IMG/VR virus record: IMGVR_UViG_3300037502_001087
Coordinates: 1-26,659 of that record
DNA: 26,659 nucleotides
Direction: 5' to 3' (one strand)
From: a virus
Position 1 is the first letter of the stretch, and every line of letters begins with the position of its first letter. The position numbers and the translations under genes are program-made. This document shows positions 2,312 through 22,998 of this stretch, one piece after another. The notes beneath the pieces are model-generated. The model was not told where the DNA came from and did not search any database. It worked only from the letters and a program-made list of their open reading frames with translations.

Positions 2312-3745
2312 TTACTTCTTTAGTGAATTAAGCAATGCTTTGAGTTTTGTACTCTGCGGGTCAGCCGTAACTTTCTTATTTATAGGTTGAATTTCTCCTG
2401 TAATTGGATCCGTATTTTCTGTGATTGAAGATTGCGTTTTCAGTTTATTCATAATGTCACTGGGACTAGGCTGAGGATTCTGTGGCCTATAACTCTGTCC
2501 TTCTCCATCTGATCCATCTGGATTAGGATCAGTAATCCTAAGTGTTTCTACATTGAATTCTAGCTCAATCTTTTGTCCTACTCCCGAACTACTACGGGTT
2601 TTCATAAGTTGCAATTGATATTGACCGCGCTCCCTCATAGACCTAGATGTGAAAATACCGAAAACGTTATCTGCTGTGTTGATTTTACTGATACCACCTG
2701 AAATATGACTGTGATCAAATTCAATTTCTTCAACTGCACTACGATTCAACTGACTAGCAGTTACAAATAGTACGTTTAATTCTTTAGCCAAGTTACGCAA
2801 TTCTTCTGATACATACTTGTCCTTAACAAACAAGTCTGATGGACTGACCTTTGCGCTGACGGGCATAAGAAGATCCAAATAATCAACGCATAAGAAATCA
2901 ATCTTTATACCTGTTTGAATTTGAAGTTCCTTACAATATGCTCTTAAGTCATTTACAGTGCTTTGAGCAGGCATATATTTTATACGTAATTTACCTGCTT
3001 TCTTGGCTAACATTTTGACTTTCATTTCAATATTATCGATATCTTTAAAAATATCTCGGCTACTAGTATCTGTCATCATGCTATCAATACGCATAGAACA
3101 CAAGCCTTCACTAAGTTCTAATGTGATGTACGCTCCATTCAATCCTGCTTGTGCCCAATTAACGGCTAAGTTCTGCATAAACAGACTTTTACCCGATCCT
3201 GACCCACCTGCAAAAATTTGCAACTCTCCTCTATTAAACCCACCATATAGTTTCCTATCCATAGTAGGCCATCCAGTACTATTTTGTCCGTTATTAGATT
3301 TAAGTGCCATGAGTCTGGCTCTAGGATCAGCAAAATAATCTGTACCCATATCTTTTTGTAGGCTGATTTGTACGGCATCTTTGATTAATTTTTCAACAGG
3401 ACCGTAGTCTCCCTTTTCTAACAAATCAGCAGACTTTAAAATAGCACGTTCTAATTCTTGTCTTTTAGTAAACTGTTCGAATTCTTCTAAAAACCAATCA
3501 TTGTGTCCCTCATCTAACTCTTGCACTAATTCTACTTCTACTCCGGTCACTGCCTTTATTTGTGTTGGCTCCGGCATCAAATTATATTTTTTAGAATGGT
3601 CTACCATAAATTCAGCTACCGGTTTCAATTTCTTTTCAAAATTAGAAGGGTTCATGATATTCATGACCCTAGTATATAATTCTGAATTTGTAACCATCAT
3701 CCTAAGAAACAAAATCTGTATGTCTGAGTTATATTCTTTTATCAA
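2312..3745 (-). CDS. 41: Replicative DNA helicase, DnaB/gp41 family
   Basis: This 477-residue protein is the 5'-3' hexameric helicase that unwinds DNA at the phage fork together with the primase encoded immediately upstream. The N-terminal helical domain covers about residues 1-130. The RecA-like motor has Walker A GGSGSGKS (180-187), a Walker B-like strand IDFLCVDYLDLL (282-293), the TASQLNRSA strand (329-337) and a candidate arginine finger in KTRSSSGVG (382-390). The start is a TTG at 3745, chosen because AAAGGA lies 6 bases before it and because the next ATG would remove the conserved N-terminal helix. It overlaps the primase 3' end by 17 bases, as expected for a coupled primosome pair. 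The C-terminal 70 residues are Pro/Asn/Ser-rich and probably disordered. Confidence 0.95.
   Translation of the reverse strand: MIKEYNSDIQILFLRMMVTNSELYTRVMNIMNPSNFEKKLKPVAEFMVDHSKKYNLMPEPTQIKAVTGVEVELVQELDEGHNDWFLEEFEQFTKRQELERAILKSADLLEKGDYGPVEKLIKDAVQISLQKDMGTDYFADPRARLMALKSNNGQNSTGWPTMDRKLYGGFNRGELQIFAGGSGSGKSLFMQNLAVNWAQAGLNGAYITLELSEGLCSMRIDSMMTDTSSRDIFKDIDNIEMKVKMLAKKAGKLRIKYMPAQSTVNDLRAYCKELQIQTGIKIDFLCVDYLDLLMPVSAKVSPSDLFVKDKYVSEELRNLAKELNVLFVTASQLNRSAVEEIEFDHSHISGGISKINTADNVFGIFTSRSMRERGQYQLQLMKTRSSSGVGQKIELEFNVETLRITDPNPDGSDGEGQSYRPQNPQPSPSDIMNKLKTQSSITENTDPITGEIQPINKKVTADPQSTKLKALLNSLKK
2377..2384 (-). promoter_or_regulatory. Perfect T4-type late promoter box TATAAATA
   Basis: An exact TATAAATA lies on the minus strand inside the 3' end of the helicase gene. 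It would start transcription near 2371, about 90 bases ahead of the 82-residue gene, and would serve the 82-residue, 432-residue and KWDG genes as a late operon. There is only one other exact copy in the window (5504-5511, plus strand) that I found. Confidence 0.5.
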
Positions 3746-4700
3746 GTTTTTTCCTTTGCATTTCTATCTTTATTTTACTGTTTGTGGCATTTTGTAAAAT
3801 ACTAAGTAATGTCATCAATTTTCCATATTTTACAACCGCATCATTTACATCTTTTACATCATCATCCCAATCGGGTATACTAACACTATATCCTAATTCT
3901 AATGCTCGATCACAGGTTAACAATCCTGTTTTGTCATGATCGGGAACAAAAATAATTTTCTTGTTTAGCCTAGATAACAGTTCTGCTTGATCATCATTAA
4001 TAGTGTTATGTGTCAGGGCACACCCGTTGATACACAACGCATCAAAAATACCTTCGACCAAAATACATATTTCCCATTCTGGTCTTTGAAAATCAACACC
4101 AAAAACATATCCCGGTTGTTGTTCATTAATATACTTTGGTGTCTTATTATCTAAGAATCTACTAGTATGTCCTACAATTTTATTTTGATAAGTATACGGT
4201 ATAACGATTCTATTACCTTGTCTACCCTTATCACCAGGAGTAATCATGAAGGGATAGTCACTAACATTTATGCCCCTAGCTTGCACATAATCAACGTACA
4301 CTTTATGCTCAGGGTTGTTTATATCTAGTATTTCTCCCAATGGTAGTTCTTGCTCTTTAAACTTTATCTTTTTCTTTTGTTTTTTTATTTGAATCAAAGA
4401 TAACAAATCTTTGTGCTGTAAACTTTCTAAATTCCATTTACTTATTTGGGTATCGTCTATACCACACCATTTCAATAGCAGTTTAGTGTTTGTAGTTAAA
4501 GCTTTTCCTAAAGTAAACCCACATTTAAATCCGCAATTGAAACATGCATATGTCCAATTAGTATCGTCTTTTTTGACCCCGCCCCTACCGCGCTTATCCC
4601 TGTTATGTCCGCGATTATGGCAGCAGGTAGCATTGAAACTATACCACCCACTTTGTGTAAGTTTTTTTCTACCTGGAATAATAGATAGGATATCGAACAT
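3729..4700 (-). CDS. 61: DNA primase, gp61 family
   Basis: This 323-residue primase makes RNA primers for lagging-strand synthesis and works with the gp41 helicase, whose gene overlaps it by 17 bases. The N-terminal zinc-binding region has CCH at 26-28 and CFNC at 53-56, with Cys60 close by. A long basic linker (about 105-118) leads to a TOPRIM-type catalytic domain with VEGIFDA (215-221, Glu216) and PDHDKTG (253-259). The order matches T4 gp61 and bacterial DnaG-type primases, and the length is close to T4 gp61. ATG 4700 has no Shine-Dalgarno; a TAAAAT hexamer with a TTGCTT -35-like element lies just upstream, so the message may be leaderless. Confidence 0.93.
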   Translation of the reverse strand: MFDILSIIPGRKKLTQSGWYSFNATCCHNRGHNRDKRGRGGVKKDDTNWTYACFNCGFKCGFTLGKALTTNTKLLLKWCGIDDTQISKWNLESLQHKDLLSLIQIKKQKKKIKFKEQELPLGEILDINNPEHKVYVDYVQARGINVSDYPFMITPGDKGRQGNRIVIPYTYQNKIVGHTSRFLDNKTPKYINEQQPGYVFGVDFQRPEWEICILVEGIFDALCINGCALTHNTINDDQAELLSRLNKKIIFVPDHDKTGLLTCDRALELGYSVSIPDWDDDVKDVNDAVVKYGKLMTLLSILQNATNSKIKIEMQRKKLDKRI

Positions 4701-5624: not shown

Positions 5625-6005
5625 ATGATACAAAATGAGTTTTTCAGAAAACTTAGTGACAATCATCCGTTTATAACAGTATGTTCCTACGCTAATCAAG
5701 ACTACGTAGGGATAATTCAAAATAGGGATGATAACGTTACTACCATTTATGACTACGGGGCCATTATCGAATCAGATGCTAAAACAAAATTTTTAGAACT
5801 CGGTGACGTATGGTGGTGGGAGAGTAACAGATTGATTCCTATAAATTTATTTTTAAAAGAGGAATGGGCTCCTTTTAGACCCTATCTAAAAACATTTGCT
5901 AATAAAAGTCTCACAATACTACACGGTCCAGTTACTAGCATGAATGAGCTTCATAAGCGTAGGTCTAAAAGACGTAGTATAACTCTAGTTAAACGATTAC
6001 CGTAA
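5625..6005 (+). CDS. Conserved T4-like phage protein of unknown function (sole plus-strand gene)
   Basis: This 126-residue protein is the only gene on the plus strand. It resembles a family I recall from T4-like marine phages, with YVGIIQNRDDNVTTIYDYG near residues 27-45, LGDVWWWESNRLIPINLFL near 64-82 and a basic C-terminus (HKRRSKRRSITLVKRLP). The basic tail suggests nucleic-acid contact, but no domain is recognised. No clear Shine-Dalgarno precedes ATG 5625. It is convergent with the DnaE-like gene, and their coding regions overlap tail-to-tail by 17 bases (5989-6005), so transcription in one direction would make antisense RNA to the other. The late-type box at 5504-5511 suggests late expression. 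Confidence 0.8.
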   Translation: MIQNEFFRKLSDNHPFITVCSYANQDYVGIIQNRDDNVTTIYDYGAIIESDAKTKFLELGDVWWWESNRLIPINLFLKEEWAPFRPYLKTFANKSLTILHGPVTSMNELHKRRSKRRSITLVKRLP

Positions 6006-6570
6006 CTTCTTCTAACAGGTTCATATGAACTATAACTAATTGGGCATAAGCAATCGCATGTGACTTTTTAAATGTATATCCTGTACTATCTTTATCCCAC
6101 ACTGTTTTTGATATTTCTTTCCAAGTTTTCCCCAATAAATGCTTTTTGCCCGGTCGTATGATAGCCAAGAACATAGCTAGTCTAGTAATACTATCTATTG
6201 ATTCAGGCATATTACGCAAAGTAGCATATTGATTGTTAAGATGAATAAGCTTTTCTACAAAATCTTTGTTTCTTAGGTTTGACCAATTTGGTTCACGCAT
6301 CAACTCAATTAAATGTTCCTCATCACGTACTTGGTTGTATACATGTACGTTTAGAAAGTCTAATTTTAAATAGCCCCGTTGTTCAGCTTCTGTATAATCT
6401 ATAGAAGCCATATCATTTACGGGATCATAGGGTATTTCAGTGACATGCACACCTGTAGCATGTTTTCGTGTTGGTTGTACCTTTAACATTGCAGAAGGAA
6501 TATGGTCTATCAGTGATAAAATTTTTTCTCTATCACCAAAATCTATATCAATATCGCTATTAAATTTCAT
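5989..6570 (-). CDS. Miniature DnaE-like protein with DNA polymerase III alpha palm motifs
   Basis: This 193-residue protein carries, in the correct order, the core motifs of bacterial DNA polymerase III alpha (DnaE, normally about 1100 residues). SDIDIDF (5-11) matches the PDxDxDF catalytic strand. HATGV (37-41) matches HAxGV. GYLKLDFL (66-73) matches GLxKxDFL, which holds the third catalytic Asp. IIRPG (137-141) matches the ALFRPG motif, and FKKSHAIAYA (167-176) matches FxKSHAxAYA. The PHP, thumb, beta-binding and OB domains are absent and the spacing is compressed. I chose ATG 6570, since the upstream in-frame TTG at 6582 has no ribosome site. It overlaps the cytidylyltransferase gene by 11 bases. 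It could be an active mini-polymerase, a regulator or a degenerate but conserved relic. Confidence 0.75.
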   Translation of the reverse strand: MKFNSDIDIDFGDREKILSLIDHIPSAMLKVQPTRKHATGVHVTEIPYDPVNDMASIDYTEAEQRGYLKLDFLNVHVYNQVRDEEHLIELMREPNWSNLRNKDFVEKLIHLNNQYATLRNMPESIDSITRLAMFLAIIRPGKKHLLGKTWKEISKTVWDKDSTGYTFKKSHAIAYAQLVIVHMNLLEEVTVIV

Positions 6571-7051
6571 GTGATTTGACAACTAATTCAGGATCATGCT
6601 GAGGAGGAACATTAGACACAACTTCTTCATTTTTTAGTTTTTCTAATCTAGCAGTACGTGCCCTGAGTTCACTAGAACTATAATCATGTTGACGTTTATG
6701 ATAGTGTAGTTCAATACCATTCTGAATGCAATACTGTTTACCTGTAAAATCACGATTTAGGTATTCTTCACTTAGAAAACGAATATGAATAGTCTGTGTC
6801 ATAAGCAATTGCAACAAATCATATTCTGTTGAGTACACTAATATCTCGTCCACATATTTACATGCTTGTAATTGCACATACCGTTCATAAACACTTTGAA
6901 TTGGTTTATTTTTTACTCCGGGTCTGTCAACTGTAGGATCGACCTGTAGTGCTACAATCAAGTAATCACATAATTGTTTTTCCATTTTAAGCATTGTTAC
7001 ATGACCGGCATGAAAGAGATCAAAACTACTGCAATTAAATCCTATCTTCAT
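6560..7051 (-). CDS. TagD-like cytidylyltransferase
   Basis: This 163-residue protein is a nucleotidyltransferase of the HxGH superfamily. FDLFHAGHVTML places the HAGH signature at residues 14-17, and YSSSELRAR near 124-132 corresponds to the second nucleotide-binding motif (ISTSxI-like). The length and motifs match glycerol-3-phosphate or related cytidylyltransferases, which join CTP to a small phosphorylated alcohol or sugar. The substrate cannot be told from the sequence. AAGGA precedes ATG 7051, which overlaps the epimerase stop as ATGA. With the RmlC-like gene next to it, a role in nucleotide-sugar or envelope/glycan modification is plausible. The last 30 residues extend past the catalytic domain. 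Confidence 0.85.
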   Translation of the reverse strand: MKIGFNCSSFDLFHAGHVTMLKMEKQLCDYLIVALQVDPTVDRPGVKNKPIQSVYERYVQLQACKYVDEILVYSTEYDLLQLLMTQTIHIRFLSEEYLNRDFTGKQYCIQNGIELHYHKRQHDYSSSELRARTARLEKLKNEEVVSNVPPQHDPELVVKSHEI

Positions 7052-7515
7052 TTACTGTCCTTTTCGCTTAGTATAATTTCTATGTCACCGGGCCAATCAA
7101 TACCATAATCAGTGTAATTGAAGTTTTCTTCTTGATCTTTATTATAAGGGGCATCTACTATGTATTGAACTTTTGCAGTTTCAGACAAAACTAGGTACCC
7201 GTGTGCATAATATGGTGGAATGAGTATAGCATTAGAACCATCCAGTTCAACTGCTACCCACTGCTTAGTGTCAACGTTTAACGCAACATCAAATACGGTT
7301 CCAATTACCGCGGTTACAAACTTTGTTTGATCTTGACGATGCATACCACGAAGCACACCTTTTCTAGATGTAGCTAGATTCAACTGCCTAAATGTGCCTC
7401 GCATAGGCTCATCTTCACTGATTTTCCACAATTCACAAAAATCACCTCTGTGATCAACGTGTTTTTTGTGTTCTATAAATCTTACGCCTGGTAGCATTTC
7501 TCCGTAAATCTTCAT
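7048..7515 (-). CDS. RmlC-like sugar epimerase (dTDP-4-dehydrorhamnose 3,5-epimerase family)
   Basis: This 155-residue cupin protein has the RmlC order of motifs: DHRGDFCELW (21-30), RQLNLATSRKGVLRGMH (43-59, with His59 at the catalytic His position), FDVALNVDTKQW (75-86) and PPYYAHGYLVLSETA (100-114). RmlC enzymes epimerise C3 and C5 of a dTDP-keto-sugar during rhamnose-type sugar synthesis. The protein is a little shorter than bacterial RmlC (about 180 residues), as is usual for phage homologues. AGGTAGGA precedes ATG 7515, which overlaps the exonuclease stop by 4 bases. The rest of the dTDP-sugar pathway is not in the window, so it may act on a host-made sugar nucleotide. Confidence 0.88.
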   Translation of the reverse strand: MKIYGEMLPGVRFIEHKKHVDHRGDFCELWKISEDEPMRGTFRQLNLATSRKGVLRGMHRQDQTKFVTAVIGTVFDVALNVDTKQWVAVELDGSNAILIPPYYAHGYLVLSETAKVQYIVDAPYNKDQEENFNYTDYGIDWPGDIEIILSEKDSK

Positions 7516-8075
7516 GTCACTAATCCTACCTTGATTAATTTCTTGTAGGCGTCCTGTACTACGATAGCCTGATGTTCAGCATCTTCTACCGCTTTGTGTG
7601 TAGTCTTACTACCATATTTTTTATCCTTAAGACTAACACCTGTAATATCGTAAATAGTTCTAGTGTCACGAACTGTATAGTATGGCCATGGGATAGGATT
7701 AGGATAATCAGTTAGTGTTTGTCTAAATCCGCTCTCACAGGCTACTACGTCAAAGCTAGCACCATTGCTCCAAACAGCACGACGGTTCCAACAAAACTTA
7801 TAAAGGACCTCCATGCACTCTCTAAATGATGTGCGTCCCCTATCTCCCAGTGCTTCTTCAAGTGCATCAGGGCTCTGTGTAGACCACCATCGTAAGGTAT
7901 CTTCATTGATAATCCTATTATGTATTTCTGTTTGATCTTCAATCGTAGGTCTTAGTTCTAATCGTTCTACGATACCTGTTCCCTTTGGATCGAATCTTAC
8001 TGCACCAATTGTAAGTATTACACAATTTGGACTTGTATCTAATGTTTCCAAGTCTATCATTATATCATTTGCCAT
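7512..8075 (-). CDS. 3'-5' exonuclease, DEDDh RNase H fold
   Basis: This 187-residue protein carries the DEDDh exonuclease residues: IDLET (7-11, Asp8 and Glu10), SFDV (108-111, Asp109) and [11 protein letters not shown] (160-170, His160 and Asp165). It resembles the small phage and mycobacterial exonuclease group that also includes T4 DexA-like enzymes. It would trim 3' ends of DNA or RNA with two metal ions; which nucleic acid is not clear. GGAG lies 7 bases before ATG 8075. The start overlaps the endonuclease VII gene by 11 bases, consistent with a DNA-processing sub-operon. Confidence 0.9.
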
Positions 8076-9718: not shown

Positions 9719-9958
9719 TTACGACCACCTTAATATAAACCAAGAAAATTCATTTTGATATCTGAAACGAAACTCGCTATGGTCTTTAAAGTAAATCCAT
9801 CTACAATGACGTTCAGGATTAGATGTGTTTTCGTATAACCAAATGACCATATTTTCATGTGTTTTATGATTTTTTCTATCTATAGAAATAGTATACCAAT
9901 TAGGGTTGGTATTTTCCCAACCCCTTTCACTATCAAAATAGTTACTTGCGTATGCCAT
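9719..9958 (-). CDS. Hypothetical protein, 79 residues, aromatic-rich
   Basis: This small protein is unusually rich in Trp, Tyr, Phe, Asn and His (GWENTNPNWY, WLYENTSNPERHCRWIYF, FSWFILRWS) and has no signal peptide. Its ATG shares one base with the stop of the protease gene (TAATG), so the two are translationally coupled. The coupling suggests a role with the protease, such as an inhibitor, chaperone or partner, but there is no motif to test this. Confidence 0.6.
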   Translation of the reverse strand: MAYASNYFDSERGWENTNPNWYTISIDRKNHKTHENMVIWLYENTSNPERHCRWIYFKDHSEFRFRYQNEFSWFILRWS

Positions 9959-12012
9959 TAAAAAGATTTAATCATAGACAATCCAAAAGCTACATCATCA
10001 ACACTACTTTGTCCTCGATAGTTTTGCCTCTTTTCTAAGAACAACATCGACTTGATATCTCTAGTGTTTTCAAATTTATGATACAGTCCCATTCTTAATT
10101 CTTTAACATTTGCAGATAGATTAACCTTTGAATTTTGTATGACATTAAACTCATTATCTAATCCTATCGGAGCCACTACATCAGCCATAGCTTTATAAAC
10201 CGTTACAGGAGAGTATAACATCAAACCCAGTGTATGATTACCTAAAGAACGTTCTGCTCCTAAAGTCCAACTTTGGCTTAATACATTTCCGATGGATGTA
10301 ATGTTTTCGCTGCTAGACTTAGTAAAAGTAATACCTGTGTTGTACGACATATACAACTTGGAAGTGTCAATAGTCTTATTTACATGTAAAGATGTATAGT
10401 ATGTATTACCAGACTTGTTGTTGCCATCACCAACAAAGCTACCTACACTATTTCCTAACCAAGTTGTTTTCTCAGAAAATGATCCAGTAGATACAGTAAC
10501 TTGAACATCATTATATTTTTTAGAATAGCTAACATCAAACATTCCTAAAGAATCATCATTGACATTTTTATAAACATTTACGTTCATGTTGTTATGTAAT
10601 GTAGCACTAAACTTATTAGTATAATTATTGAACAACACATATGGATTTTTATTATCGTATACCATGAGTGCTTGTGCTAAGTTAAATTCTCTTGGTGGCA
10701 CTCTTGCAGTCAATATCTCCCCGGGGGTGTAAAAATCTCTTTCGAAAGAATCAACAACCATGAGTTTTGTAAGTCCACCTGTACTTGCACTACCGCCTGT
10801 ATATACTAGTGGTTTTACTGCTGATAAACTAGGTCCAGCCAATCTTCCTGTTGTGGGAATCCCCAAATTACCCACTGGGCGTGTCGCTTTTTCTAAATCT
10901 AACAGACCCTGACCATGCACATATAAGTTGTAGTTGGGTATATTTTTATTTGCTGTTACTAATAGAAGTTTAGCAACATTTGAACCCTTCATCTGCGGCC
11001 ACATTTGATGTATAATTGCGGCTGCACCAGAAATAACAGGTGCTGACATAGAAGTCCCTGTCATTGTAGCAAGCCCTGTAGGTTGCAAGGAAGCGTCATA
11101 TTTTTGTGGTATTCCCGCAGTCTTAGGAACGGTACTTAAAATGTTTGTTCCCGGGGCCATCAAGTAAAATTCCCAAGTTTTATATTTGTCAGCACAATAC
11201 TGAGTATTCATAACACCCTTAACTGTAGTTTGGCACAAGTGTGCGGCACCGTTACTAGTATTATTAATAGTATTAGTTGCTGGATTATAATTTCCAGCAA
11301 TTAGTATTCTACCCCCAAATACAAGCGACCCTTTAGTATCGGTCAATGTTGCTAATCCTGCCATGCCTTGAGACCATTTAGTACCATCATTACCTGCCGA
11401 TATGACAATGACGGATTCACCCTGAAGTGCTTGTGCCCAAGAAGAAGCATTAAACAAACTACTAATAGGTAAACTTCCGGTATTAGTGAATTTTGTTTGA
11501 TACACTCCATTGGACATTGACTTAGCAGACAAGTAGCTCTGAGAAAGAGTCCAACCCAAACTCATATTGATTACGTCTACACCGGTAGAATTGATCCAAC
11601 TAGCGGCTGTTAGCAAATTATTAGTTCCCACCATACCATTATCAGTAACCTTACCTATAACTAATTTAGCATCGTAGGCTACTCCATGTATTCCTATACC
11701 ATCCCTAGCAGCAGCGGCTATTCCTGCTACATGAGTTCCGTGACCAATTCTATCTATAGGCGTTCCACTTCCAGTAAAATCTCTAATTAATAGAATCTTG
11801 TCTTTGAATTGGTTACTACTAGTATCGATTCCACTATCAAGAATTCCAATAACACTATCTCTACCTGTATATCCACGAGCATATGCTGAACTAGCATTGA
11901 TAGATTTAAGTGCGTTACTTAAATTATATTCTGTAGTTTGAAATTGTGTTTGAGAGAATACATTACTACCTACTAACAACAGTAATGCAGAAACTACTAT
12001 TTTTGATTTCAT
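9958..12012 (-). CDS. Secreted subtilisin-like (S8) serine protease with autotransporter-like C-terminal domain
   Basis: This 684-residue protein starts with a Sec signal peptide (MKSKIVVSALLLLVGSNVFS, likely cleaved near residue 20). The S8 domain runs from about 40 to 375. Asp59 lies in GILDSGID, His91 in GHGTHVAG, the oxyanion Asn208 in SAGND and Ser321 in GTSMSAP, so the catalytic set is complete. Residues about 380-684 lack protease motifs. They alternate polar and hydrophobic residues in strand-like runs and end in FGLSMIKSF, with a C-terminal Phe as in outer-membrane beta-barrels. This is the layout of a subtilisin autotransporter, though shorter than usual. AGGAG lies before ATG 12012. 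It may act on the host surface, in lysis or in superinfection exclusion; these roles are inference. Confidence 0.9.
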   Translation of the reverse strand: MKSKIVVSALLLLVGSNVFSQTQFQTTEYNLSNALKSINASSAYARGYTGRDSVIGILDSGIDTSSNQFKDKILLIRDFTGSGTPIDRIGHGTHVAGIAAAARDGIGIHGVAYDAKLVIGKVTDNGMVGTNNLLTAASWINSTGVDVINMSLGWTLSQSYLSAKSMSNGVYQTKFTNTGSLPISSLFNASSWAQALQGESVIVISAGNDGTKWSQGMAGLATLTDTKGSLVFGGRILIAGNYNPATNTINNTSNGAAHLCQTTVKGVMNTQYCADKYKTWEFYLMAPGTNILSTVPKTAGIPQKYDASLQPTGLATMTGTSMSAPVISGAAAIIHQMWPQMKGSNVAKLLLVTANKNIPNYNLYVHGQGLLDLEKATRPVGNLGIPTTGRLAGPSLSAVKPLVYTGGSASTGGLTKLMVVDSFERDFYTPGEILTARVPPREFNLAQALMVYDNKNPYVLFNNYTNKFSATLHNNMNVNVYKNVNDDSLGMFDVSYSKKYNDVQVTVSTGSFSEKTTWLGNSVGSFVGDGNNKSGNTYYTSLHVNKTIDTSKLYMSYNTGITFTKSSSENITSIGNVLSQSWTLGAERSLGNHTLGLMLYSPVTVYKAMADVVAPIGLDNEFNVIQNSKVNLSANVKELRMGLYHKFENTRDIKSMLFLEKRQNYRGQSSVDDVAFGLSMIKSF

Positions 12013-12020
12013 TACGACTC

Positions 12021-12722
12021 CTAATAACCTGCAGTTAATAACATTTTTCTAACTTCTTTTACATCATCGATATTTTTGATAAGTTTCAATGCCCATTGTT
12101 CAGGGTTAATGTAATCCATGATCATCTTTTCTTGTGTTTCATTCAACTTTTCAAGAAATTCTCTGCCGCTTTCGCTATGATAAAGCATCCATGGACTGAT
12201 CTTACCTTTAGTTATTTCATAACATATGCGGTTGGTATTACCATATCGTAAAACATCTTTTGTGAATATCTTTTCGTTTTCTGCTAGTTGAATAGTAGTC
12301 TCTATACTTCTAGCCACTGCATCTAGTGCATTTTCAGTACGCAGATATTCTATCAAAAATTTAGTATAGTTTGTATCCGTATTCCAAGTATCTATTTTGA
12401 TTTGGTTCTTAACTAACCAGTCAGCATATCTTGGAACATTGATGACATTGGCATCTATACAATATAAACCAAATTTTACAAAGGCACCATAGTACGCTGA
12501 CTTAATAAATTCTTCGTAAGTTTTAGTTTTCTTACTCGCAGAGTTTTTCCTGTAAAACTGCACCCATGCTTGAAATCCAATTCGGTTACATGGTCTGTCT
12601 TTTTCTAACCAACGATGTTTGTATTCACAAATATGCTTTAGTATTGTTGACTCACGAAGGAACGTGCGTCCGCAAAACTCACAGCCAAATTTAGACTTAT
12701 CCGTTTCCTCTGTCTTTTTCAT
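12021..12722 (-). CDS. Conserved T4-like phage protein with N-terminal C2H2-type zinc finger
   Basis: This roughly 233-residue protein begins with a zinc-finger-like segment, CEFCGRTF followed by LKHICEYKHRW, giving a CxxC...H...C/H set in its first 45 residues. The rest is helical, with YEEFIKSAYYGAFVKFG and a run of aromatic residues. It matches a family I remember from T4-like cyanophages whose function is unassigned. The ATG at 12722 is preferred over the in-frame TTG at 12731. It overlaps the upstream gene by 26 bases, and its stop codon lies directly before the AGGAG of the protease gene. It probably binds nucleic acid or a replisome partner; this is inference from the finger and from the uvsW neighbourhood. 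Confidence 0.75.
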   Translation of the reverse strand: MKKTEETDKSKFGCEFCGRTFLRESTILKHICEYKHRWLEKDRPCNRIGFQAWVQFYRKNSASKKTKTYEEFIKSAYYGAFVKFGLYCIDANVINVPRYADWLVKNQIKIDTWNTDTNYTKFLIEYLRTENALDAVARSIETTIQLAENEKIFTKDVLRYGNTNRICYEITKGKISPWMLYHSESGREFLEKLNETQEKMIMDYINPEQWALKLIKNIDDVKEVRKMLLTAGY

Positions 12723-13293
12723 ATTGTTCAATATCGTTATCGGTAACTAATTCATTCAATACTTCAAGGTCAGAAATTTTCATGTTTGGATATATCTGAC
12801 CTAAATGAACTTTTCTTTTTTGTTGGCTAACATAAACCTTAGATAACTCATCAATATCTTTGGGATCAGCATTACTATAAATTTTACTATAGTATTCTTT
12901 TATTTCTTTCTGTGTGGCTGTCTCTTTGTATTTGCCTACTTTGTCTCTGATGTGAGGTATCCATTGATGAAATTGTTTACCTAGTCCTGGACTAGCACTG
13001 CATAACATTAGCCATTGTAATTTAGGATGCTTCTGTACGAATTCTGCAAATAAATGTTTGTTAGCATATTCATTGGTACTCATTACATAATACCTTGATA
13101 CACCTTCACTTCCTTTGATGGCACTCATCCAATGAGTTAACATGAAGGGCACTACCTTTTTCTTTTGTTCTTCGGTAAGCCTGTCATAATACGCATAATC
13201 TTTTTTGTCTATAGCAGCAAGGATTTCGAAAAGGTCAACCTCTACCTTTTCGAATTTTTCGTCTTTTTCAAGTTTTGGTTTTCGTGTCGCCAT
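12697..13293 (-). CDS. Conserved T4-like phage protein, possibly a clamp-loader small-subunit (gp62) relative
   Basis: This 198-residue protein is mostly helical. It has a segment with MSTNEYANKHLF, then LQWLMLCSASPGLGKQFHQWI. The arrangement of a helix, an LQWL strand and a GxGKQxHxW turn loosely resembles the T4 gp62 pattern (a YLMAAVPRGKRYGKW-type stretch). GPGLGKQ is not a Walker A: there is no following Ser/Thr. The relation to gp62 is from memory and weak. Start TGATG overlaps the upstream stop, and the 3' end overlaps the zinc-finger gene by 26 bases, so these genes form one coupled unit with uvsW upstream. Confidence 0.55.
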   Translation of the reverse strand: MATRKPKLEKDEKFEKVEVDLFEILAAIDKKDYAYYDRLTEEQKKKVVPFMLTHWMSAIKGSEGVSRYYVMSTNEYANKHLFAEFVQKHPKLQWLMLCSASPGLGKQFHQWIPHIRDKVGKYKETATQKEIKEYYSKIYSNADPKDIDELSKVYVSQQKRKVHLGQIYPNMKISDLEVLNELVTDNDIEQYEKDRGNG

Positions 13294-21682: not shown

Positions 21683-21934
21683 TCACCATTCACCGTCATC
21701 GTCCGATTCTTCTTCATAATCTTCATATTCTTCTTCGGCTTCGTGTTCATTAACGTAATCTTTGAGTGCCGTTAGAATTTCTTTCTCACCACGAAACGCC
21801 TCTTTAATTTCATCAGCTTCGTAATTGTTTTCAATAAGTAGATTCACTAGTGAATCTGCTGCATCTTTACGTTCGTTGAAATCAATATGGTTACGTAGTG
21901 CATCCCACACTTCTGCAACAAAATTCAATGTCAT
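21683..21934 (-). CDS. Small acidic-tailed protein in the uvsX operon, 83 residues
   Basis: This protein has a helical body (FVAEVWDALRNHIDFNERKD, then SLVNLLIENNYEADEIKEAF) and an extremely acidic tail from about residue 64 (EAEEEYEDYEEESDDDGEW). It resembles a small conserved T4-like cyanophage family next to uvsX. Acidic tails can mimic DNA and interact with basic DNA-binding proteins, for example UvsX or gp32. Its start overlaps uvsX by 4 bases (ATGA), with the GAGGAGGAACATGAAGA area of uvsX serving as the ribosome site. Function unknown. Confidence 0.75.
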   Translation of the reverse strand: MTLNFVAEVWDALRNHIDFNERKDAADSLVNLLIENNYEADEIKEAFRGEKEILTALKDYVNEHEAEEEYEDYEEESDDDGEW

Positions 21935-22998
21935 TCTTCATGTTCCTCCTCAGTTGATAGAGTACTTAGCTTAGATGTAGATTTTTTTTGGTAATCTACC
22001 ATTACTTTGTCTAAGCATCCATCATCATTGGATTCCCAACCCTTACGAAAGAACTTCAACACTTCGCCCTCATCTGTTGTGTATGACAAGCGATTACCTT
22101 CTTTAGTAAGCATGCCGGCACCTTCAAACAAATCAAGTAAACCACTATACGGGTTCATACCTGTTTCATAAGGAATTTTAACTTGCACACTTTCAAAGGG
22201 CTTTGCATAACGTGTTTTCATTACCTTACAGGCTGAACGAATGCCACGTACATCGCTCACTTTGTTGCCATCTTCATCCTCTTTAAGTTTGAGTTTACGC
22301 ATAGCAACAACAATACTTGACGCATAGATAAAACCTTGACCACCGCTGATCTTATCATCTGGATCAAACATATCTTGTGAAGCATATGTATGATTAGTTG
22401 CAACAAGACCTACATTGTGACTACCGAACATATTAACACAGTTACGCACAAGTGCAGTAAGTGCCTTAGGCTTGCGACCCATGTCGCCTTTCATATCACC
22501 TGCTTCGAACTGGTTAACGTCAGTAGGTGTCAACAACATACCCAAGCTATCAATAATGAAAAGAACTTTAGGCTTATCCTCTGCAGGAAGTGCTTTATAA
22601 CTTTTCATAAACTCGCTAATAGTTTTAGCAACATCATCAATCATTGCCATGTTCAACTTTAATAGCTTATCTTCACTTGTATCAACACCAAGTGCTTTTA
22701 GCCAGTCCTCGTCCAACGCATTTTCTGAATCAACGAGTACAACAAAGATTCCTTGCTGTTGTGCGTGTCTGACAAGGTTTCCTGAACAAATGTAACTCTT
22801 TCCTGATCCACTCTCTCCGGCAAAGACAGTAACTTTACCAAGAGGTACGCCTTTATTAAAATCACCACTAATGAGGTAATTGAGGGCATAATTTCCTGTA
22901 CTAACCCAATCAGTTGGGTCATTGAATCCGATACTAAGTCCTTCAATAGACTTGGTAATGTCTTTTCTAAATTTACTAACATCAAAAGGTTTCCCCAA
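21931..22998 (-). CDS. uvsX: RecA-like recombinase UvsX
   Basis: This 355-residue strand-exchange protein has Walker A GESGSGKS (61-68) after LGKVTVFA, a Walker B-like VLFIIDSLGM, ATNHTY and the GQGFIYASSIVVAMRKLKL segment typical of UvsX and RecA-like proteins. It drives recombination-dependent replication and repair with gp32 and a mediator. The start is TTG 22998, since AGGAG lies 6 bases upstream and no ATG is available before the conserved N-terminus. The C-terminus is acidic (STEEEHEE). It overlaps the acidic small gene by 4 bases. Confidence 0.95.
   Translation of the reverse strand: MGKPFDVSKFRKDITKSIEGLSIGFNDPTDWVSTGNYALNYLISGDFNKGVPLGKVTVFAGESGSGKSYICSGNLVRHAQQQGIFVVLVDSENALDEDWLKALGVDTSEDKLLKLNMAMIDDVAKTISEFMKSYKALPAEDKPKVLFIIDSLGMLLTPTDVNQFEAGDMKGDMGRKPKALTALVRNCVNMFGSHNVGLVATNHTYASQDMFDPDDKISGGQGFIYASSIVVAMRKLKLKEDEDGNKVSDVRGIRSACKVMKTRYAKPFESVQVKIPYETGMNPYSGLLDLFEGAGMLTKEGNRLSYTTDEGEVLKFFRKGWESNDDGCLDKVMVDYQKKSTSKLSTLSTEEEHEE

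Follow-up and report, generated by a model that had tools for sequence, protein, structure and literature searches.

A 193-residue protein of an uncultured phage is the metal-binding half of a split, minimal bacterial-type DNA polymerase III alpha

The Pol III alpha core is the core of the universal bacterial replicase. Why should a phage encode its motifs within a protein of only 193 residues? This question was raised by an open reading frame (ORF) of an uncultured phage, located in a 26.7-kb genome fragment (the whole stretch of DNA that was analysed, referred to below as the window). The results described below identify its product as one half, the metal-binding one, of a DNA polymerase of bacterial type reduced to its essentials. 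The partner half is encoded by a separate phage gene, and the window phage adds a member to the split minimal Pol III already described in 2021. In these giant T4-like phages, which replicate with an unrelated polymerase family, the bacterial replicase core survives as two small proteins.

Identification of the C-terminal half

The ORF is located on the minus strand, with an ATG codon at position 6570 and a TAA stop codon at positions 5989-5991.

5989..6570, minus strand: C-terminal half of a split minimal Pol III alpha, 193 aa (phrog_11778, AlphaFold2 model, VIA alignment, invariant residues)

The original prediction had drawn attention to DnaE motifs placed in a defined order, and this observation proved correct: SDIDIDF (residues 5-11), KHATGV (36-41), YLKLDFL (67-73), IRPG (138-141) and KKSHAIAYA (168-176) follow one another in the protein, while residues 3-190 match the PHROG profile phrog_11778 ('DNA polymerase') with an E value of 9.6e-58, which is more than chance. 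Weaker PHROG matches tie the protein to families of full-length phage DnaE. Single-sequence searches of Pfam, NCBIfam and the PDB returned nothing significant, and the link to Pol III alpha therefore requires profiles or structure. A direct hhalign comparison with E. coli DnaE alone was also weak (probability 13.7, E 0.002). The metal-binding Asp residues D6, D8 and D71 correspond to D401, D403 and D555 of E. coli alpha, and K69 corresponds to K553.

An AlphaFold2 model of the protein (hereafter the C-half), built from an alignment of 50 homologues, had a pLDDT of 91.5 and a pTM of 0.82. In a Foldseek search, bacterial Pol III alpha accounted for each of the best seven matches of this model, with E values of 0.005-0.015 and probabilities of 0.97-0.99. 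VIA-align placed it on G. kaustophilus PolC (Z 9.5, 187 residues aligned, 3.4 A), Taq alpha (Z 9.3, 189 residues, 3.9 A) and E. coli alpha (4jom; Z 8.6, 185 residues, 4.2 A), the first non-Pol III row reaching only Z 3.5. On E. coli alpha, residues 1-192 of the C-half map to 397-781. The 'reduced DnaE-like fold' originally proposed is thus upheld by the predicted structure, which matches the palm and fingers of Pol III alpha, as well as by the motifs and by the selection acting on the gene (see below).

A separate N-terminal half and the cut point

The C-half chain is without the first part of the palm, which bears the GS motif. Searching the relatives with PF07733 revealed this part as a separate protein of about 170 aa (phrog_11127; hereafter the N-half), encoded elsewhere. 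Its model had a pLDDT of 83.9 and a pTM of 0.56, and residues 60-168 map on E. coli alpha 270-393 (Z 9.8, 101 residues aligned). Since the C-half occupies 397-781, the halves tile without overlap. The motif GxGRGS is present in 40/40 distinct N-halves, whose chains end 0-6 aa after EF[LFI]x, and the C-halves begin a few residues before DIDID. The cut between the halves is exact and invariant.

Each of the 13 full-length phage records tested that encode a C-half also encodes an N-half (these include one 'partial genome' and one unverified record). A family B polymerase is also encoded in 13/13 of these records, in agreement with the original statement that such phages rely on this type of enzyme. 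Five of eight large contigs also carry an N-half, whereas the three without one measure 139-216 kb, and among the 60 C-half records listed the N-half was undetected in one only, a record of 109 kb. Neither the N-half nor a family B polymerase gene is located on the window; given that the window is a 26.7-kb fragment, we infer both for its phage from the relatives. A sister of the window phage (G004), whose C-half is 80% identical to that of the window, contains the N-half.

Split inteins were considered and rejected, as the N-halves stop so close to the cut and most of the open stretches upstream of the C-halves are short. Queries with the N-half also matched positions ~310-440 of PHROG families 13169 (463 aa) and 7513 (461 aa), near the ends of these profiles. 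The members of these families may be proteins of other phages composed of PHP plus the first palm half, i.e. another DnaE split at a similar site.

Regions missing from the split enzyme

The Pol III thumb grips the primer-template, and structures of Pol III have the incoming nucleotide in contact with R390 and with the RR pair. The segment between DxDxDF and KHAxGV has 24 residues in the C-half vs 103 in E. coli, so the thumb (residues 433-509 of E. coli alpha; PMC4703070) is gone. The distance between RPG and KSH is reduced to 27 residues vs 116, which means that the R709-R710 region has been removed together with much of the fingers. In 40/40 N-halves the position of E. coli R390 is occupied by Glu. 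The PHP and (HhH)2 domains, nearly universal in family C polymerases (PMC3919608), are also absent: alignment of the C-half model is confined to residues 397-781 of E. coli alpha, and 193 aa leave no room for them. A search for a third protein with the remaining part of the fingers found none; PF17657 picked up essentially the C-half itself, apart from one very weak match (E 0.016-0.019) in a frame of 558-565 aa in two related phages. The loss of the thumb, parts of the fingers, R390 and R709-R710 casts doubt on templated polymerisation by the split enzyme.

Distribution, conservation and selection

Homologues covering at least 80% of the C-half were detected in 63 phage records, essentially all of jumbo phages, including PA5oct/Paride, Atu_ph07, Phosso, 121Q/PBECO4, RaK2, GAP32/CBB, Munch/SE_PL, SCTP-2, XacN1 and CM1. 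Identity to the window protein was below 60% in all cases (31-50% among the matches listed). In IMG/VR, relatives of the C-half are encoded on 350 stretches.

Alignment of 91 distinct C-half homologues revealed Asp at the positions equivalent to D401, D403 and D405 in 87/87 readable rows. The equivalents of K553 and D555 are invariant (91/91), as are, in the readable rows, the Arg-Pro of RPG (90/90) and the equivalent of H760 (89/89). The invariance of the catalytic Asp residues extends down to about 30% identity. D401, D403 and D555 are metal ligands conserved across family C, while D405 marks the DnaE groups and is replaced by Asn in PolC (PMC3919608). The ratio pN/pS was about 0.15 in pairs of close relatives, with synonymous sites near saturation, which indicates purifying selection.

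A scan of 84,980 genomes gave C-half matches on MAG contigs only, 13 of the 15 relatives on such contigs being 39-54% identical. A cellular origin or home for the C-half was rejected, as these matches most likely represent misbinned phage. Scanning the viral_contigs set with the C-half of a Vibrio phage gave no match.

Gene neighbourhood and linkage to the clamp loader

The C-half gene is embedded in a block with the conserved order UvsX, UvsW helicase, phrog_11279, phrog_11758, phrog_11058, C-half, phrog_11637, primase and DnaB helicase, which is shared by Paride, Atu_ph07, 121Q and RaK2 although these phages differ widely. The following neighbours were distinguished in the window:

2312..3745, minus strand: DnaB-like replicative helicase (T4 gp41-like), conserved neighbour (phrog_19, E 6e-73; synteny)
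3729..4700, minus strand: DNA primase, conserved neighbour (phrog_47, E 4e-36; synteny)
5625..6005, plus strand: phrog_11637 convergent gene, 126 aa, overlapping the 3' end of the C-half gene by 17 nt
12021..12731, minus strand: zinc-finger-like protein, phrog_11058 (in the divergent clade its homologue directly precedes the C-half)
12697..13293, minus strand: phrog_11758 protein, tentatively a T4 gp62-like clamp-loader small subunit (homologue directly after gp44 in contig G010)
13808..15262, minus strand: UvsW-like helicase, conserved neighbour (relatives have a gene annotated as helicase at the syntenic position)
21931..22998, minus strand: UvsX/RecA-like recombinase belonging to this cluster (relatives have a gene annotated as recombinase at the syntenic position)

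The N-half gene is located 0.7-3.3 kb upstream of the gp44 clamp-loader gene, on the same strand, in 20/20 genomes with both genes. A co-chaperonin-like gene lies between them in the inspected cases; for Paride, the annotation of the intervening genes does not go beyond 'hypothetical'. Six divergent genomes, namely XacN1, CM1 and four contigs, carry the genes for the N-half, gp44 and the C-half in this order on a single strand, within 4-15 kb. The arrangement in G010 spans less than 5 kb: N-half, a 93-aa ORF, co-chaperonin, membrane protein, gp44, phrog_11758, phrog_11058 and C-half. A simple reading is that all these genes once formed one clamp-loader operon, which was later broken, in the main lineage, between gp44 and phrog_11758. 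This gene position, together with one weak match to the phrog_225 clamp loader (E 0.0075), suggests that phrog_11758 may be the clamp-loader small subunit; a PDB profile search with this family found no T4 gp62 structure, and the name is therefore tentative.

Several other genes of the window are worth mentioning. The phrog_11637 gene (~120 aa) is the convergent neighbour of the C-half in nearly all relatives with enough flanking sequence; this tail-to-tail arrangement is family-wide, and the protein is 71-90% identical among close relatives, beyond many of its neighbours. Directly before the C-half (6560-7515, minus strand) there are cytidylyltransferase-like and dTDP-sugar 3,5-epimerase-like genes, variably present among relatives. 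A DnaQ/RNase T-type exonuclease gene (7512-8075, minus strand; PF16473, phrog_255) is among the genes nearest the C-half in most near relatives. A 684-aa protein encoded amid the replication genes (9958-12012, minus strand) has a signal-like N-terminus and a subtilisin-type catalytic triad pattern (LDSGID, GHGTHVAG, GTSMSAPV), and its C-terminal portion resembles the barrel of autotransporters; only some of the relatives have this protein.

Possible function of the split enzyme

We consider it probable that the 193-aa protein forms the C-terminal half of a family C (Pol III alpha) catalytic core which is made up of two subunits, has no thumb and acts as an accessory polymerase beside the family B replicase. 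The C-half would contribute the three metal-binding Asp residues and the Lys equivalent to K553, along with shortened fingers that include the KSHA helix, while the N-half of about 170 aa would contribute the first palm part with the GS motif. The two proteins would bind non-covalently, with no intein involved, and rebuild a Pol beta-like nucleotidyltransferase site capable of adding nucleotides to the 3' end of DNA by two-metal catalysis. The linkage of both genes to those of the clamp loader, primase, helicase and recombination proteins points to an accessory DNA polymerase involved in repair or gap filling; such an enzyme might carry out short-patch synthesis beside the family B replicase, e.g. 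gap filling or recombination-dependent repair, and its partners would most likely be the T4-type clamp loader and clamp. We propose, tentatively and with considerable doubt, that the two-subunit enzyme is built into a T4-type family B replisome as its second polymerase and is coupled to the gp44/gp62 clamp loader and the clamp. If so, a single sliding-clamp system would serve two polymerase families, unrelated to each other, within the same phage, and the loss of the thumb and of R390/R709-R710 would mean a different hold on primer and nucleotide.

Many small enzymes of the Pol beta superfamily are terminal or end-modifying transferases, or act on RNA or protein. The pair described here could be an active nucleotidyltransferase of this kind rather than a templated DNA polymerase, since the three Asp residues, the K553 equivalent and the GS motif are kept, while the parts holding the primer-template and the incoming nucleotide (thumb, much of the fingers, R390, R709-R710) are lost; the catalytic domain of Pol III alpha is, moreover, related to that of Pol beta (PMC3919608). 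Retention of RPG and of the KSHA helix of the fingers, and the location of both genes among replisome genes, speak against this reading, which we judge rather unlikely. A catalytically silent Pol III-fold scaffold, organising the clamp loader/primosome or competing with host Pol III, would also be compatible with the lost DNA-gripping parts and with the tight linkage of the N-half to gp44, and resembles the decoy suggested in the original prediction. It is, however, improbable, and the decoy is disfavoured as well, because the Asp residues and the counterparts of K553 and H760 do not vary among 87-91 distinct sequences and because residues 920-924 of E. coli alpha, its clamp-binding region, fall outside the matched part.

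The same invariance argues against a relic, another role originally considered. Decay of a captured host dnaE might explain the large deletions relative to DnaE, yet it is contradicted by the low pN/pS value, the conserved residues and the existence of hundreds of relatives with constant length and fixed gene order, so that we give it hardly any credence. As for the 'mini-polymerase', this term suits the N-half/C-half pair only. The C-half has all three Asp residues in one chain and is predicted with confidence to fold alone; nevertheless, the palm part with the GS motif is a strictly co-occurring separate protein which ends exactly where the 193-aa protein begins, and action of the latter on its own is very improbable.

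If active, the accessory polymerase that we favour would be among the smallest family C catalytic cores and would test the minimum of Pol III alpha needed for chemistry. It could also serve as a model for the assembly of large Pol III alpha, as Iyer et al. argue (PMC7824862). Knowledge of the cut, of the partner protein and of the linkage to the clamp loader opens the enzyme to direct tests in cultured phages, e.g. 121Q, RaK2 or Paride.

Comparison with known systems

A phage-specific minimal Pol III alpha of the jumbo phages of group 2.2 was described by Iyer et al. (2021; PMC7824862). It is composed of two separately encoded proteins, the N-terminal one binding NTP and the C-terminal one binding Mg and the template, which occur alongside a family B polymerase and possibly cooperate with it in the synthesis of one strand or in repair. 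The system analysed here (phrog_11778 plus phrog_11127) has the same Mg-binding C-half, separate NTP-binding N-half and coexisting family B enzyme. A Pol III alpha gene was also noted in the Atu_ph07 paper (PMC6102473); this gene is the N-half (gp316). Literature searches found no experimental study of a split Pol III alpha. Beyond the consulted sections of PMC7824862 and PMC6102473, the present analysis adds the exact cut, the residue losses (thumb, R390-to-E) and the N-half-gp44-C-half gene order.

Another short phage DnaE was detected on contig G019 (7300-9009; L218:1312-3021), about 5 kb from a split C-half gene of the same contig. This single-chain protein of 574 aa contains the GS motif, PDIDIDY, RPV and CRAHA, which means that the phage carries two Pol III alpha-type proteins that differ from each other. 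A search of 19 related records did not recover it, and its best phage relative is in an uncultured phage of 484 kb whose record is unannotated (LR756508). Like other single-chain short phage DnaE (phrog_11165, phrog_405), it has both motif sets in the same order, unsplit; unlike the split pair, it retains both the arginine at the R390 position and the RR pair, and its DIDID-to-HCGG segment is longer.

With bacterial DnaE (1160 aa in E. coli; Taq alpha) the split enzyme shares the palm fold, D401/D403/D405/D555, K553, RPG and the KSHA helix. In contrast to it, the phage enzyme consists of two polypeptides of about 360 aa in all, is devoid of PHP, thumb, C-terminal tail and internal clamp motif, and has shortened fingers and Glu in place of R390. 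It also differs from the DnaE and PolC enzymes of family C in that the GS motif is not in the same chain as the catalytic Asp residues. The T4 gp43-type family B polymerase is encoded by the same genomes as the split Pol III, but has an unrelated fold and catalytic motif.
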